Notes under the pieces: model-generated
Told to the model about the DNA's origin: nothing
The model's database searches: none
Seen by the model: only the letters and a program-made list of their open reading frames with translations
NCBI GenBank assembly: GCA_016222815.1
Contig: JACRQE010000002.1
Location: 124,001 to 188,000, forward strand
Direction: 5' to 3'
Source: Candidatus Uhrbacteria bacterium
GTDB taxonomy: Bacteria > Patescibacteriota > Patescibacteriia > 2-12-FULL-60-25
DNA: 64,000 bases
Program-made: the position numbers and the translations under genes
Part shown: one piece after another, positions 4,493 to 46,101 of the stretch
Layout: every line of letters starts with the position of its first letter
Numbering within the stretch: the first letter of the stretch is position 1

Positions 4493-4523
4493 GTAAGATC
4501 CCCCGGTTGAACCGTGGGATGAC
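4491..4523 (+). repeat. REP-like element type A, forward
   Basis: Forward half of a palindrome family found many times here: GTAAGA, then CCCCGGTTGAACCGTGG, then ATGACAG. It begins at the PfkB stop codon. Confidence 0.75.
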
Positions 4524-4535
4524 AGTAATAACAAG

Positions 4536-5580: not shown

Positions 5581-6564
5581 ATGCCCAAGATTTTCGTCAC
5601 GCGCAAGTTCGCTGACAGCGGCATCAAAGCCCTGAAAGCCAAAGGCTACAAAATAGAGGTCTACGCCGAGGATAAGATCATCCCGCGCAAGACTTTGCTG
5701 GAAAAGGCGAAGGGTTGCGATGCGCTCTTGCCGCTTTTGACGGATAAGATAGACGACGGAGTGTTCGACGCGGCCGGTCCTCAGCTGAAGATAGTAGCGA
5801 ACTACGCGGTCGGTTTTGACAACGTGGACCTGGCCGCGGCCAAGAAACGCGGCATAGTCGTGACCAATACGCCGTCGGACAAGGTCAATGAAGCAGTGGC
5901 CGAACACACGTTCGCGCTAATGCTGGCGCTCGCACGGCGCATCCCCGAAGCGGACCGTTTCGCCAAGGCCAAGAAATACGCAGGCTGGTCGCCAACGCTT
6001 TTGACCGGCACGGACCTGTACGGCAAGACGCTGGGCATCGTCGGCGCAGGGCGCATCGGTTCGGCGGTCGCACAACGGGCCGTGGGCGGATTCGGGATGA
6101 AGCTCATCTATTCGGACATGCGACAGAACGTGGATCTGGAGAGGAAATTCAAGGCCGAATACATGAGCATGGAGAAGCTCCTGCAGACAGCCGATTTCGT
6201 ATCGCTCCACGTACCGCTCCTGCCTTCGACGAGACATTTGATTTCGACAGCGGAATTTTCCATGATGAAAAAGACGGCGTTCCTGGTGAACACGGCGCGC
6301 GGGCCGGTCGTGGACGAGAAAGCCCTGCTCCGGGCTTTGAGGACAAAGCGCATCGCGGGCGCGGGCATCGACGTGTTCGAATGCGAACCGGCCATCGACT
6401 GCGACATGACCGATACCTTGGAGCTCAAGACTTACGACAACGTTATCCTGACTCCGCACATCGCGAGCGCGACAATCGAGGCAAGAGAAGCCATGGGCAT
6501 GGTGGCGGCCGAGAACATCATCGCGGTATTGGAGGGCAAGGAGCCGCTGAATCCAGCGAAATAG
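5581..6564 (+). CDS. D-isomer-specific 2-hydroxyacid dehydrogenase (NAD-dependent)
   Basis: A 327-residue protein with both domains of the D-2-hydroxyacid dehydrogenase family. The catalytic domain starts MPKIFVTRKFADSGIKAL. The NAD-binding Rossmann motif is VGAGRIGSAVAQRA. The catalytic residues are visible: Arg in VNTARGPVVDE, Glu in the following acidic stretch (FECEP) and His in LTPHIASAT. It probably reduces glyoxylate, hydroxypyruvate or a related 2-oxo acid, though the substrate is not decided by sequence. I start at 5581 rather than nine codons earlier, because those codons come from the REP-like element. Confidence 0.92.
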   Translation: MPKIFVTRKFADSGIKALKAKGYKIEVYAEDKIIPRKTLLEKAKGCDALLPLLTDKIDDGVFDAAGPQLKIVANYAVGFDNVDLAAAKKRGIVVTNTPSDKVNEAVAEHTFALMLALARRIPEADRFAKAKKYAGWSPTLLTGTDLYGKTLGIVGAGRIGSAVAQRAVGGFGMKLIYSDMRQNVDLERKFKAEYMSMEKLLQTADFVSLHVPLLPSTRHLISTAEFSMMKKTAFLVNTARGPVVDEKALLRALRTKRIAGAGIDVFECEPAIDCDMTDTLELKTYDNVILTPHIASATIEAREAMGMVAAENIIAVLEGKEPLNPAK

Positions 6565-6579
6565 GGCCAGTGAGAGAAA

Positions 6580-6600
6580 CGGCCTGCGGGCTGTTTTTTT
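6580..6600 (+). terminator. Probable intrinsic terminator
   Basis: A short GC stem (CGGCC with GGGCTG, one wobble) followed by seven T residues, just after the dehydrogenase stop. Confidence 0.5.
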
Positions 6601-6683
6601 CTTGCCAAGAACGGCGCTTAACGATACGCTTCAGCCAAGAAGCTATGCCCTGCCTGACTTTTTGGCCATTATCGATAAAACCT

Positions 6684-9465: not shown

Positions 9466-10032
9466 ATGAAAATCTATCTGGTCACGACAAACAAATACAA
9501 GATCGCCACGGCGCGGAAAAACTTGGCCGGGAGCGACATCAGCGTCCAGGCGGTGAAAATGGAGACGCCGGAGATACAGGCGTTGACCGGCAAAGATATC
9601 GCGTCTTTCTCCGCACAATTCGCTGCGGAAACACTCGAGGCTCCGGCCATGTGCACGGATGCGGGCATGTACATCCGGGCACTGGGCGGATTCCCGGGAC
9701 CTTTCATCAAGTTCGTGAACCACTGGCTCACGGCCAAGGATTTGGTGCGACTCATGGATGGTAAAAAGAATCGGCGTATCGATATCGTCGAATACCTCGC
9801 CTACTGCGAACCAGGTAAAAAGCCAAAAGTCTTCAAAGCCACGGCGCCGGGGACGCTCGCCAAGGAGCCTAGCGGCAAGAGCGAGAATCCGATTGATGAG
9901 CTTTTCATCCCGACAGGCCATAAACAAACTCTCGCGACCATGCAGGAAAAGGCGAAACGCGCTTTTTTCGCCAATCACCTGACGCACTGGCAGGAACTTG
10001 CAAGATTCATCAAAAAACACCAAGCTACCTGA
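9466..10032 (+). CDS. Ham1/RdgB-like non-canonical purine NTP pyrophosphatase
   Basis: A 188-residue protein with the Ham1 fold signature. The N-terminal TTNKYKIATARKNL corresponds to the family SxNxxK motif. CTDAGMYIRALGGFPGPFIKF matches the D(D/S)(S/A)G...ALGG.PG core. IDELFIPTGHKQTLATM matches the F.P.G...T..EM end. Such enzymes hydrolyse ITP/XTP and protect the nucleotide pool. An extended -10 box (TGTTATCAT, 9447-9455) ends only four bases before an ATG at 9460. I therefore choose the second ATG at 9466, which would be leaderless or nearly so. The stop lies four bases before the MurE-like gene. Confidence 0.85.
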   Translation: MKIYLVTTNKYKIATARKNLAGSDISVQAVKMETPEIQALTGKDIASFSAQFAAETLEAPAMCTDAGMYIRALGGFPGPFIKFVNHWLTAKDLVRLMDGKKNRRIDIVEYLAYCEPGKKPKVFKATAPGTLAKEPSGKSENPIDELFIPTGHKQTLATMQEKAKRAFFANHLTHWQELARFIKKHQAT

Positions 10033-10036
10033 TGAT

Positions 10037-11362
10037 ATGAACCCAAAGAAACTACTTAAGAAGCTCACGCCTGAATGGATCCTGTCGAGCTACCATCTGG
10101 CGCTCGCCTATTTGGCGGCGGCACGGTACGGATTCCCGTCCAAAAAGATGGCGATAATCGGCATCACGGGGACAAAGGGAAAGACCACGACCGCGAACTT
10201 CGTGTGGGCGGCGCTGACCGGAGCCGGATTCAAGACCGGGCTCATCGGTACGGCCAATATCCGCATCGGCGAAACGGAAAAGATGAACGAGTACCACATG
10301 ACAATGCCTGGGCCAATGGTCATGCAAAAAATCATGGCCGAGATGGTGAAGGCCGGGTGTACGCACTGCGTGTTCGAGACGACCTCGGAAGGCATCAAGC
10401 AATGGCGACACAAGGGCATCGCATACGACATCGGGATCTTCACGAACCTGACGCCCGAGCATCTGCAATCGCATGGCGGGAGTTTTGAGAACTATAAAAC
10501 GGCCAAAGGCGAGATGTTCAAGGCACTGACACAGAGCCCGAAGAAAACCGTAGCGGATCGGGAGATCCCGAAGACGGCCATCATCAACAATGACAGTCAG
10601 CACAAGGATTACTTCTTATCTTTCCCGGCGGACAAGAAAATCACTTACGGGCTCATGCCCGGAGCTGATTTCCAGGGGCAGAATGCTTTCTCGACGCCGG
10701 CCGGCGTGGCTTTTTCGGTGAACGGCGAGAATTACACTCTGCATATCGTGGGAGAGTTCAATGTCATGAACGCACTGCCGGCCATCATCACGGCCAAGCA
10801 GTTCGGCGCCACGGCAGAAGCGATCCAGAGCGGATTCGACGCGCTGGAGATCATCGCGGGCCGGATGGAAAAAATCGACCTGGGCCAACCCTATACGCTG
10901 TACGTGGACTATGCGCATGAGAAGGAAAGCATGACCGCGGTCCTGAAGACGGCGCAAGCCATCACAAACAACACGCGCGGTCGGATTATCGTCCTGCTCG
11001 GGGCCGAAGGCGGCGGGCGCGACAAGGCCAAGCGGCCGATCATGGGCGAGCTGGCCGGAAAAATGGCGGATTACGTCATCTGCAGCAATGTGGATCCGTA
11101 CGAAGATGATCCGCTGCCGATCGCGGAGGATATTGCGTTCGCGGCGGAAAAAGAGGGCAAGGTCCGCGGCAAAAATCTGTTCGTCATTCTGGACAGGCGC
11201 GAGGGCATCAGGAAGGCGCTGGAGCTTGCCCAAGCGAATGACGTGGTGCTCATCACCGGCAAAGGCGCTGAACAATCGATCGTGATCGGAGGAAAAAGTT
11301 CGTTCTGGGATGACCGCGACGTGGTCAGGGAAGAACTTGGGAAGATGCTGGGCAAGGGTTGA
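10037..11362 (+). CDS. murE: MurE-type Mur ligase (UDP-MurNAc-tripeptide synthetase family)
   Basis: A 441-residue ATP-dependent Mur ligase. The P-loop GITGTKGKTTTANF begins near residue 42. NLTPEHLQSHGGSFENYKTAK carries the family's carbamylated-Lys region. Later come GEFNVMNALPAI (Mur ligase middle) and the C-terminal domain VDYAHEKESMTAVL with LLGAEGGGRD. It most resembles MurE, which adds the third stem-peptide residue in the cytoplasm. The usual N-terminal nucleotide-binding domain of about 90 residues is missing, replaced by a 35-residue helix. The third-position amino acid cannot be told. It follows the Ham1-like gene by four bases. Confidence 0.85.
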   Translation: MNPKKLLKKLTPEWILSSYHLALAYLAAARYGFPSKKMAIIGITGTKGKTTTANFVWAALTGAGFKTGLIGTANIRIGETEKMNEYHMTMPGPMVMQKIMAEMVKAGCTHCVFETTSEGIKQWRHKGIAYDIGIFTNLTPEHLQSHGGSFENYKTAKGEMFKALTQSPKKTVADREIPKTAIINNDSQHKDYFLSFPADKKITYGLMPGADFQGQNAFSTPAGVAFSVNGENYTLHIVGEFNVMNALPAIITAKQFGATAEAIQSGFDALEIIAGRMEKIDLGQPYTLYVDYAHEKESMTAVLKTAQAITNNTRGRIIVLLGAEGGGRDKAKRPIMGELAGKMADYVICSNVDPYEDDPLPIAEDIAFAAEKEGKVRGKNLFVILDRREGIRKALELAQANDVVLITGKGAEQSIVIGGKSSFWDDRDVVREELGKMLGKG

Positions 11363-13507: not shown

Positions 13508-13553
13508 ATTCCCCGGCTGTGCCACGTTCTACGTGGTTGAACCGTGGAACGAC
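13508..13553. repeat. REP-like element type A, long form
   Basis: GATTCCCCGG and CCGTGGAACGAC ends with an inner CCACGTTCTACGTGG palindrome, as at 17977 and 22381. Confidence 0.65.
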
Positions 13554-22320: not shown

Positions 22321-22430
22321 AGGTAAGATTCCCCGGTTAAACCGGGGAATGACAGATTATTTTATGGTTAGCTTATCGCTTGTCGTCCCACGGCTTGACC
22401 ACGTAGGACGTGGCACGGCCGAGGGACCTG
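22321..22430. repeat. REP-like elements type A, forward and long reverse copies
   Basis: A forward copy at 22321-22354 (GGTAAGATTCCCCGG ... GGGGAATGACAG) faces a long reverse copy at 22381-22430 (TGTCGTCCCACGG with inner CCACGTAGGACGTGG). Confidence 0.75.
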
Positions 22431-33337: not shown

Positions 33338-33583
33338 CTGTCGTCCCACGGCATGACCGGGGGAGCTTACAAATCGGGCTCTTGCTGTAAGATTCCCCGG
33401 TTGAACCGTGGAATGACAGTTATATTTAAGTTCTTAACTCTTCTGTCGTCCCACGGCATGACCGGGGGAACTTACCAACCACGCTGATTGTAAGGTTCCC
33501 CGGTTGAACCGGGGAATGACAAGCTTTTATATTTTAGTCCTGAACTCTCAATGTCGTCCCACGGTTCAACCGGGGGAACTTAC
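33338..33583. repeat. Type-A REP array, five copies
   Basis: Reverse copies (CTGTCGTCCCACGG ... CTTAC) at 33338, 33443 and 33552; forward copies (GTAAG ... GAATGAC) at 33387 and 33490. The first four form two inverted pairs with spacers of about 15 bases. The fifth lacks its mate on this side and overlaps the GIY-YIG stop codon. Confidence 0.85.
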
Positions 33584-33855
33584 ATTATCTTGATTTCTTC
33601 CCAATTTGGATTAGTTTTGCCAATCAGCTCTTTTTTCCAACTTCGATTCCATTTCTTGAGCCTCTTTTCCCTCTGGATAGCGGAACGAACATCTTCTACG
33701 ACTTCATAATAAACCAGTTTAGTGGCTCTGTATCTTTGGGTGAAGCTATCGGTACTGCATGTTTTGTGTTGCCATAGGCGTCTCGCGAGATCATTCGTTA
33801 TCCCAATATACAAAACAGTGTTGTTTTTGTTGGTTAGAATATATACGAAATACAT
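33580..33855 (-). CDS. GIY-YIG nuclease-domain protein between REP halves
   Basis: A 91-residue single GIY-YIG domain. VYILTNKNNTVLYIGITNDL carries the two name motifs, RRLWQHK the conserved Arg/His region and YYEVVEDVRSAIQREKRLKKW the Glu-containing helix. It resembles the small stand-alone UPF0213/YhbQ-type proteins, which are probable DNA nucleases. The gene lies exactly between an unpaired reverse REP half (33552-33583) and an unpaired forward half (33896-33930). Its TAA stop is part of the REP sequence GTAAG. This suggests gene and palindrome moved or evolved as one unit, which is inference. Confidence 0.88.
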   Translation of the reverse strand: MYFVYILTNKNNTVLYIGITNDLARRLWQHKTCSTDSFTQRYRATKLVYYEVVEDVRSAIQREKRLKKWNRSWKKELIGKTNPNWEEIKIM

Positions 33856-33895
33856 ACCCTATCTTCACCGCTGCCATACATCCTAAAATCGCGCA

Positions 33896-34035
33896 AGGTA
33901 AGCTTCCCCGGTTGAACCGGGGAATGACAGTTTTTTCATAATCGATATATATTCTTTCTGTCGTCCCACGGCTTGACCGGGGGATCTTACCATCGCACTG
34001 GTTGTAAGGTTCCCCGGTTGAACCGGGGAATGACA
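33896..34035. repeat. Type-A REP array, three copies
   Basis: Forward at 33896-33930, reverse at 33958-33990, forward at 34004-34035. The first is the likely mate of the reverse half at 33552, across the GIY-YIG gene. Confidence 0.85.
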
Positions 34036-45381: not shown

Positions 45382-46101
45382 TCAATAGCTTTGCTTCCAA
45401 TGGCTAGCCAGGAGCGAGAGGTCAAAGTCATCCACCCTTCCGTCCTCGTTGAAGTCGGCGAATGGATTGTACGTCCGGAAAGCACGCGACAGGATGGAAA
45501 GGTCGCGGTCATTGACCACGCGGTCGCGGTTGCAGTCGCCGATGAGAAGACGTTCGATGGTCCCGGTGACAACCGGGGTCACATACCCGGAAGGCAGGCG
45601 GGCTTTGACTTGGATGACGTTCAAGCCCAGGAAAAGCGGCAAATCGCGCGACCAGGTGCTGGCAGTCGGATAATTGACGCCGACCTCGGAACCGTTGACC
45701 GAGATGAACGCGGACTGGGCTCCGCGAGTGCCGTTGATAAGTTGATGCGATTGGAAAGTCGGGGTCTTATAGGTAAACGTCGGCGGGACCACATAATCGA
45801 CGGAACCTGTTCCGCCGCCACCACCGCCGGGTCCGGGCGGGACAGGCGGGGTAGGTGCGGACGGATCCGGGAACGGAACGCCGCTTTGGACCGAGAATCC
45901 GGCGCTGTCAGATTTGCCTACCGCGTAATCGACAGAGCCGCTGACTTGGTAGTTGGCGGACGAAACGTTGCCGGCAGCTGGCGCAAAAGTCGGGGCCGTG
46001 TCCTTATAATTCGCGCTGGATGTATCAATGGCCGATACAGAAAAAGGGACTGCGGATAAAACCACAGCCGCGAATATCAAAACTATCCGAACCTGCCGCA
46101 T
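45382..46101 (-). CDS. Secreted dockerin-bearing protein (set B)
   Basis: A 239-residue paralogue of the set-A dockerin protein. The signal peptide (MRQVRIVLIFAAVVLSAVP) precedes an N-terminal domain (SSANYKDTAPTF ... SVDYAVGKSDSAGFSVQSGVP). A Pro/Gly hinge and an Ig-like domain (about 105-185) follow. The dockerin is intact, with both calcium loops: DCNRDRVVNDRDLSILSRAF and DFNEDGRVDDFDLSLLASHW. TGCTATACT ends six bases before the ATG, so the message should be leaderless. The next gene begins one base after the stop. Confidence 0.87.
   Translation of the reverse strand: MRQVRIVLIFAAVVLSAVPFSVSAIDTSSANYKDTAPTFAPAAGNVSSANYQVSGSVDYAVGKSDSAGFSVQSGVPFPDPSAPTPPVPPGPGGGGGGTGSVDYVVPPTFTYKTPTFQSHQLINGTRGAQSAFISVNGSEVGVNYPTASTWSRDLPLFLGLNVIQVKARLPSGYVTPVVTGTIERLLIGDCNRDRVVNDRDLSILSRAFRTYNPFADFNEDGRVDDFDLSLLASHWKQSY

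Follow-up and report, generated by a model that had tools for sequence, protein, structure and literature searches.

Does the small GIY-YIG nuclease gene that lies between two copies of a repeated palindrome encode the enzyme that moves this palindrome? The question is raised by positions 33339-34035 of a 64,000-nucleotide stretch of the Candidatus Uhrbacteria bacterium genome (contig JACRQE010000002.1; hereafter the window), where eight arms of a 32-base palindrome, termed type A, follow the consensus TGTCRTYCC-CGG-TT-S-AA-CCG-GGGA-N-CTTAC. The TGTC tag is at the left in the arms starting at 33339, 33444, 33552 and 33959, and at the right in those starting at 33387, 33490, 33898 and 34004. 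Six of the eight arms form three tight head-to-head (HH) dimers with gaps of 11-16 bases, namely dimer 1 (33339..33418; arms 33339-33370 and 33387-33418), dimer 2 (33444..33521; arms 33444-33475 and 33490-33521) and dimer 3 (33959..34035; arms 33959-33990 and 34004-34035). In these unstranded features, the TGTC tags are outermost and the CTTAC/GTAAG tails point inward toward each other. The two remaining arms, tag left at the 3' end of the gene (33552-33583, plus strand) and tag right at its 5' end (33898-33929, minus strand), are partnered only with each other across the GIY-YIG gene (33580..33855, minus strand; 91 aa; Pfam PF01541, 2e-19), which belongs to the lineage termed clade R below. 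The proposed mobile cassette, REP - GIY-YIG - REP, thus spans 378 bases from tag TGTC to tag GACA (33552..33929, minus strand), and the stop codon TAA of the gene (33580-33582, minus strand) is part of the GTAAG of the arm. A sequence-only reading had described the eight copies in about 700 bases, the tight inverted pairing of most of them, the lone reverse and forward halves around the gene and the stop codon within the repeat, all of which were recovered.

The same reading expected at least a dozen further copies in the window. We found only two good arms, at 4493-4524 (minus strand) and at 22323-22354, the latter with a partner head at 22381 (22323..22393, unstranded), and degenerate ones at 13534, 17607 and 22381; dozens of copies occur only elsewhere in the genome. 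The arms are not due to chance, as 10 were observed compared to none in mononucleotide-shuffled windows. Throughout the 1.3 Mb assembly of 8 contigs, the core CGGTTSAACCG has 40 matches against 4 for the reversed pattern, and CGGTTSAACCGKGGRAYGACA (21-base core, up to two mismatches) has 58 against none. Beyond the window, the copies are arranged as HH dimers, with some in TT orientation and some single. A type-A arm is predicted to fold into a 9-bp stem with a 3-nt loop and the tail CTTAC, whereas one HH dimer (dimer 2), as single-stranded DNA, is predicted to adopt a branched structure of three hairpins, closed at its base by pairing of the tags (z = -4.2). An Rfam search with the hairpins yielded sub-threshold chance matches to microRNA precursors and nothing above threshold, and the HH-dimer spacers showed by eye no similarity to the GIY-YIG gene. 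At the ends of contigs C1, C3, C7 and C8 of the same assembly (L022-L025) lie fragments of Y1_Tnp (IS200-like), which suggests that the assembly was broken by a multicopy element; type-A palindromes are absent beside these pieces.

Comparison with described repeats indicated that the window palindromes fit the CGTC/TGTC-tagged REP superfamily, named in 2013, rather than being a private class. This superfamily, which includes the Rickettsia RPE, is characterized by a terminal CGTC or TGTC, A/T pairs opening the stem and an arrangement mainly in HH dimers (Di Nocera et al., PMC3733652). Regarding the tag outside the stem (CGTC or TGTC/CCTC), all eight window arms (8/8) start with TGTC, and CGTC is present in many arms of clade R genes elsewhere; the three HH dimers agree as well. 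The superfamily has a stem of 8-9 bp, a loop of 4-5 and a CCA tail, compared to the 9-bp stem, 3-nt loop and CTTAC of type A; the CCA tail is found in 49/87 downstream arms of clade R genes elsewhere. For CGTC REPs, the 2013 survey reported no dedicated transposase, never found them beside tyrosine transposases and left the mover open, whereas GTAG REPs are mobilized by RAYTs, whose genes are described as incapable of self-propagation (PMC3733652). Three of the species named in that survey, Azospirillum lipoferum, Novosphingobium aromaticivorans and Sinorhizobium meliloti (PMC3733652), possess clade R genes. In later literature, covered mainly as open full text of published papers and including the 2025 RepRanger paper, we found no link between CGTC REPs and GIY-YIG proteins.

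The 91-residue protein has a GIY-YIG domain with the catalytic Y, Y, R, H/Y, E and N of the superfamily. In the clade R alignment, Tyr4, Tyr15, Arg25, His29 and Glu62 are invariant and Asn81 is nearly so, at positions that we take to correspond to the GIY-YIG catalytic residues; this conservation is consistent with an active nuclease. The predicted structure (pLDDT 84) is nearest in fold to UPF0213 (PDB 1zg2), UvrC-N and Slx1, with I-TevI also among the matches. PADLOC and NCBIfam gave nothing over the cut-off, leaving a defence role unsupported. A TGGCAGC-like motif is present about 20-30 bases before the start codon of five clade R genes (L001, L055, L059, L061 and L065), possibly a conserved leader or binding site.

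GIY-YIG domains are present in 57/57 relatives, and the tree of 69 small GIY-YIG proteins from these genomes has three groups: clade R, clade T and the remainder. Every gene with REPs on both sides is contained in clade R, which makes up 26 rows of the tree. Under a strict label (a tag pointing outward at either side, no more than 250 bases away), 16/16 flagged genes are in clade R, together with three rows added by eye (support 98/99; 0/500 shuffles), whereas none of the 43 genes outside this clade has both tags. Clade R members score at least 77 bits against the clade R profile, compared to at most 61 bits for the other clades. Over all small GIY-YIG genes in the relatives, 12/71 are REP-flanked versus 0/329 controls. 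The expectation that GIY-YIG homologues are flanked by palindromes therefore holds for clade R and fails for the other two clades. Type-A palindromes are multicopy in 3/57 relatives (58, 9 and 5 matches), all three of which (3/3) have a type-A-flanked clade R gene, and the REP - GIY-YIG - REP layout of the window is repeated in genomes G003 and G024. A tree of 111 clade R proteins did not resolve the type-A-flanked genes of G003, G024 and the host (G000) as one clade.

Clade T contains most of the small GIY-YIG genes that neighbour tRNA genes; in the 57 relatives, about 20 genes are found at most 250 bases from a tRNA gene, usually directly on its 3' side. At two host loci, L003 (G000:C6:71924-75142) and L005 (G000:C6:247086-250295), an intact tRNA gene is located on one side of the GIY-YIG gene and a damaged tRNA copy on the other, and L004 is a further locus of this group. 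The pseudo-tRNA copies (L003, ~1230-1360; L005, ~1310-1470) hold short GC-rich hairpins, such as GCCCGGTCATCCGACCGGGC, at the positions of the D, anticodon and T loops. Possibly, clade T is a further mobile GIY-YIG family with tRNA genes as its targets.

We scanned named genomes with a four-sequence clade R sub-alignment and obtained 80 clade R loci in about 20 phyla, including classes of Proteobacteria, Chloroflexi, Bacteroidota, Planctomycetota, Spirochaetes, Nitrospirae and Omnitrophota, in addition to one archaeal MAG. By the criterion of outward tags at either side, at most 250 bases away, 51/87 clade R genes are flanked, compared to 8/474 other ORFs of the same loci, and an inverted repeat with a score of at least 16 spans 47/87 clade R genes versus 10/474 controls. 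The proportions of flanked clade R genes in two other samples were 23/30 and 41/60, and the repeated flanking that had been set as a test is thus confirmed for this lineage. The tag-to-tag unit has a median length of 381 bases (41 flanked loci). In 20/41 loci the stop codon is no more than about 37 nt away from the tag, and the borrowed stop codon is therefore a recurrent trait of a packed cassette. Roughly one in three clade R genes is without recognisable paired tags within 200-250 bases. Ten records of a plasmid collection, inspected by eye, have matching inverted palindromes around the gene in most cases, including Azospirillum lipoferum, Rhizobium sp. CIAT894, Shinella and Sphingobium. 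In phages, clade R gave only weak matches (35-37% identity), namely to Rhizobium phages and to a single phage record without annotation, which does not point to phages as the vehicle. In an Anaerolineae MAG (L191), two clade R genes (5586-6675 and 9548-10400) each lie within long tandem arrays of ~80-base REP units.

The association extends to the level of genomes. Using the generic REP pattern GTCATNCCNGN{3,9}CNGGNATCC, the reversed control of which gave zero everywhere in 287 genomes of the phylum, at least three REPs per genome were found in 48/84 genomes with clade R versus 14/203 without (OR 18, p=2e-19), and at least ten in 29/84 versus 8/203. At the family level, the proportions are 34/47 with clade R and 8 of roughly 79 without. 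REP families thus also occur in 14/203 genomes where a clade R gene was undetected. The presence of Y1 alone is weakly correlated with REPs (OR 3), and given clade R no effect of HUH/Y1 transposases on REPs was found in these genomes (p 0.81), whereas clade R predicts REPs at either Y1 status (OR 11 in Y1-positive and 27 in Y1-negative genomes). Palindromes are therefore commoner where clade R is present, and HUH/Y1 transposases are not the cause. Moreover, the similarity among the nucleases parallels that among their REPs (Mantel r 0.45, with 0/999 permutations as high), and the tree requires 5 changes of the first tag base (C or T) compared to 14.1 after shuffling (0/500). Such covariation would be expected both from shared descent and from shared horizontal transfer of the unit.

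Evidence that the cassette moves as a unit comes from a duplication and from empty sites. Genome G218 has two cassette copies 4.4 kb apart that are identical at 409/410 bases (99.76%) within unrelated flanking sequences; it is the one near-identical pair among 60 loci. At its right edge the identical stretch ends precisely with GACA, whereas at the left it begins with four bases (TCTC) preceding TGTC, where TCTC is either a chance match or part of the element. In G336, compared with G218, the cassette is absent, and the intergenic stretch is too diverged for a readable junction. On Sphingobium plasmids, the cassette lies between fnrL and a response-regulator gene in seven records; at this site, TYG64 and TYG74 have the solo palindrome CGTCACCCCGGGTCAAGCCCGGGGTGACG, TYG72 has another repeat, TYG65 is without a palindrome of that type, and S. 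herbicidovorans has no palindrome altogether. In Azospirillum lipoferum, a clade R gene between two HH dimers lies within sufB-sufC, which is intact in the other Azospirillum records compared, and on Shinella plasmids the site is occupied in three and empty in others. Empty sites in relatives, which the sequence-only reading had proposed to look for, were thus found in three genera, alongside the duplicate bounded by REP tags to within four bases at one edge. Neither the G218 copies nor the empty sites show a target-site duplication, and we found no consensus for the insertion sites. The 274-aa gene next to the window cluster is absent from the three remaining genomes of the genus, and the empty-site evidence therefore comes from other genomes rather than from the window locus; a 45% identical paralogue of this gene with one in-frame TGA is located at 45382-46068 of the window. 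Altogether, movement of the cassette as a unit is well supported, and as in insertion sequences the mobile unit is bounded by terminal inverted repeats, as seen in the G218 duplication and in the spanning repeats of clade R genes (47/87 versus 10/474).

Who performs this movement could be explained in several ways. The GIY-YIG gene might be a selfish homing endonuclease that cuts existing REPs and is copied in by break repair, the REPs being landing sites amplified otherwise. This is a classic homing-nuclease fold, with I-TevI among the fold matches; insertion into a palindrome would give flanking REPs, and the solo palindrome CGTCACCCCGGGTCAAGCCCGGGGTGACG in two Sphingobium plasmids, where relatives hold REP-gene-REP, fits homing. 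However, a solo palindrome is equally expected as a scar of excision or deletion, the S. herbicidovorans site is without any palindrome and that of TYG65 without one of this type, and the G218 copies carry a complete REP at each end. Moreover, homing leaves the amplifier of the REPs unexplained, and Y1 transposases do not explain them. Homing is the main rival reading, which we regard as unlikely.

Alternatively, an HUH/Y1 transposase of the RAYT kind could move dimers and cassettes alike, with the GIY-YIG gene as a passenger. GTAG REPs are moved by RAYTs (PMC3733652), Y1_Tnp pieces lie at four contig ends of the host genome, and Y1 alone has an OR of 3; however, this effect is nil once clade R is given, clade R has an OR of 27 in genomes negative for Y1, type-A palindromes are absent near the Y1 genes of the host, and the 2013 survey did not find CGTC REPs by tyrosine transposases (PMC3733652). 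The vanishing of the Y1 effect makes an HUH enzyme as the mover very unlikely. A passive association, in which REPs gather in the intergenic gaps around small recently acquired genes and the protein is a repair enzyme, would agree with the intergenic position of REPs and the fold near UvrC-N. For Caulobacter, a UvrC/Cho-like back-up role was proposed in 2007, and one paralogue there has an SOS box (PMC1839093). Against this, the controls from the same loci are at 8/474 compared to 51/87, flanking REPs are absent from the other two small GIY-YIG clades, the tags always point outward, and neither nuclease-REP covariation nor tag-to-tag duplication would be expected. Size-matched, recently acquired genes flanked by REPs to the same extent were not seen in these genomes. 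Clade specificity, the excess over controls and the G218 copies together render chance or a plain repair role very unlikely.

The cassette is instead probably a minimal mobile element, in which a clade R structure-type GIY-YIG gene is bounded by inverted, outward-tagged CGTC/TGTC REPs and its nuclease acts on REP hairpins, thereby mobilizing REPs. The broader proposal, that clade R nucleases are dedicated CGTC/TGTC REP enzymes acting as transposases in an element of ~380 bases found in many phyla, is one we lean towards with some reserve. No GIY-YIG protein is known to us to drive DNA transposition by itself. Clade R is the best candidate yet for the missing REP enzyme. Of the initial idea that a GIY-YIG nuclease mobilizes type-A palindromes, the flanking by one clade, the co-occurrence and the movement as a unit are borne out, and from these we infer mobilization of REPs by GIY-YIG catalysis. 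We propose that REP arms would extrude or fold when single-stranded, for example at a fork, and that the nuclease might recognize the hairpin or the branched dimer. In fold, GIY-YIG proteins as small as this one are close to UPF0213, UvrC-N and Slx1, the last of which cuts branched DNA. A nick at or near the tag could then free or copy the unit that two outward tags enclose. When this unit includes the gene, the cassette would move in cis; when it does not, REP dimers would move in trans, and gene-less dimers may thus be non-autonomous derivatives, by analogy with REPINs and RAYTs.

Few bacterial repeats are as widespread as the CGTC REPs, the mover of which the 2013 survey left open, and the link between clade R and REPs across phyla allows the proposal to be tested using a single small protein and a single oligonucleotide. 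Should clade R be able to cut REPs, this would amount to a second way of REP mobilization, unrelated to the first, and possibly to the smallest autonomous mobile DNA element of this type; many genes now annotated as "GIY-YIG nuclease family protein" or as "excinuclease ABC subunit C" would then need a new annotation.

Among known systems, the window repeats share with CGTC REPs the tag, the outward-tagged HH dimers and the start of the stem, and the canonical CGTCATTCCCGCGAAAGCGGGAATCCA flanks many clade R genes, but type A differs in its CTTAC tail instead of CCA and in its short loop. The cassette resembles RAYT-REPIN systems in that a small single gene for a DNA-cutting enzyme is flanked by tagged REPs, accompanied by many gene-less dimers and by covariation of enzyme and REP. 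However, the flanked gene encodes a GIY-YIG nuclease rather than the Y1 HUH enzyme of REPtrons, the tag is TGTC/CGTC rather than GTAG, and the cassette was copied from tag to tag (one edge within 4 bases), whereas RAYT genes are described as not self-propagating (PMC3733652). With the free-standing and intron-encoded GIY-YIG homing endonucleases (I-TevI, Seg/Mob), clade R has in common the catalytic fold and a selfish, patchy occurrence; by contrast, it is without an intron or a large DNA-binding domain (~90 aa), and is REP-bounded and multicopy with gene-less derivatives. UPF0213 (YhbQ, COG2827; 1zg2), UvrC-N and Slx1 provide the solved structures nearest to the clade R model, yet the clade R profile separates its members from the other clades, and cassettes are found only in clade R. 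Similar to insertion sequences with their MITEs, the system has inverted-repeat ends and autonomous as well as non-autonomous forms, but the cassette possesses neither a DDE, HUH, serine or tyrosine transposase nor a visible target-site duplication, its single gene encoding a GIY-YIG nuclease.
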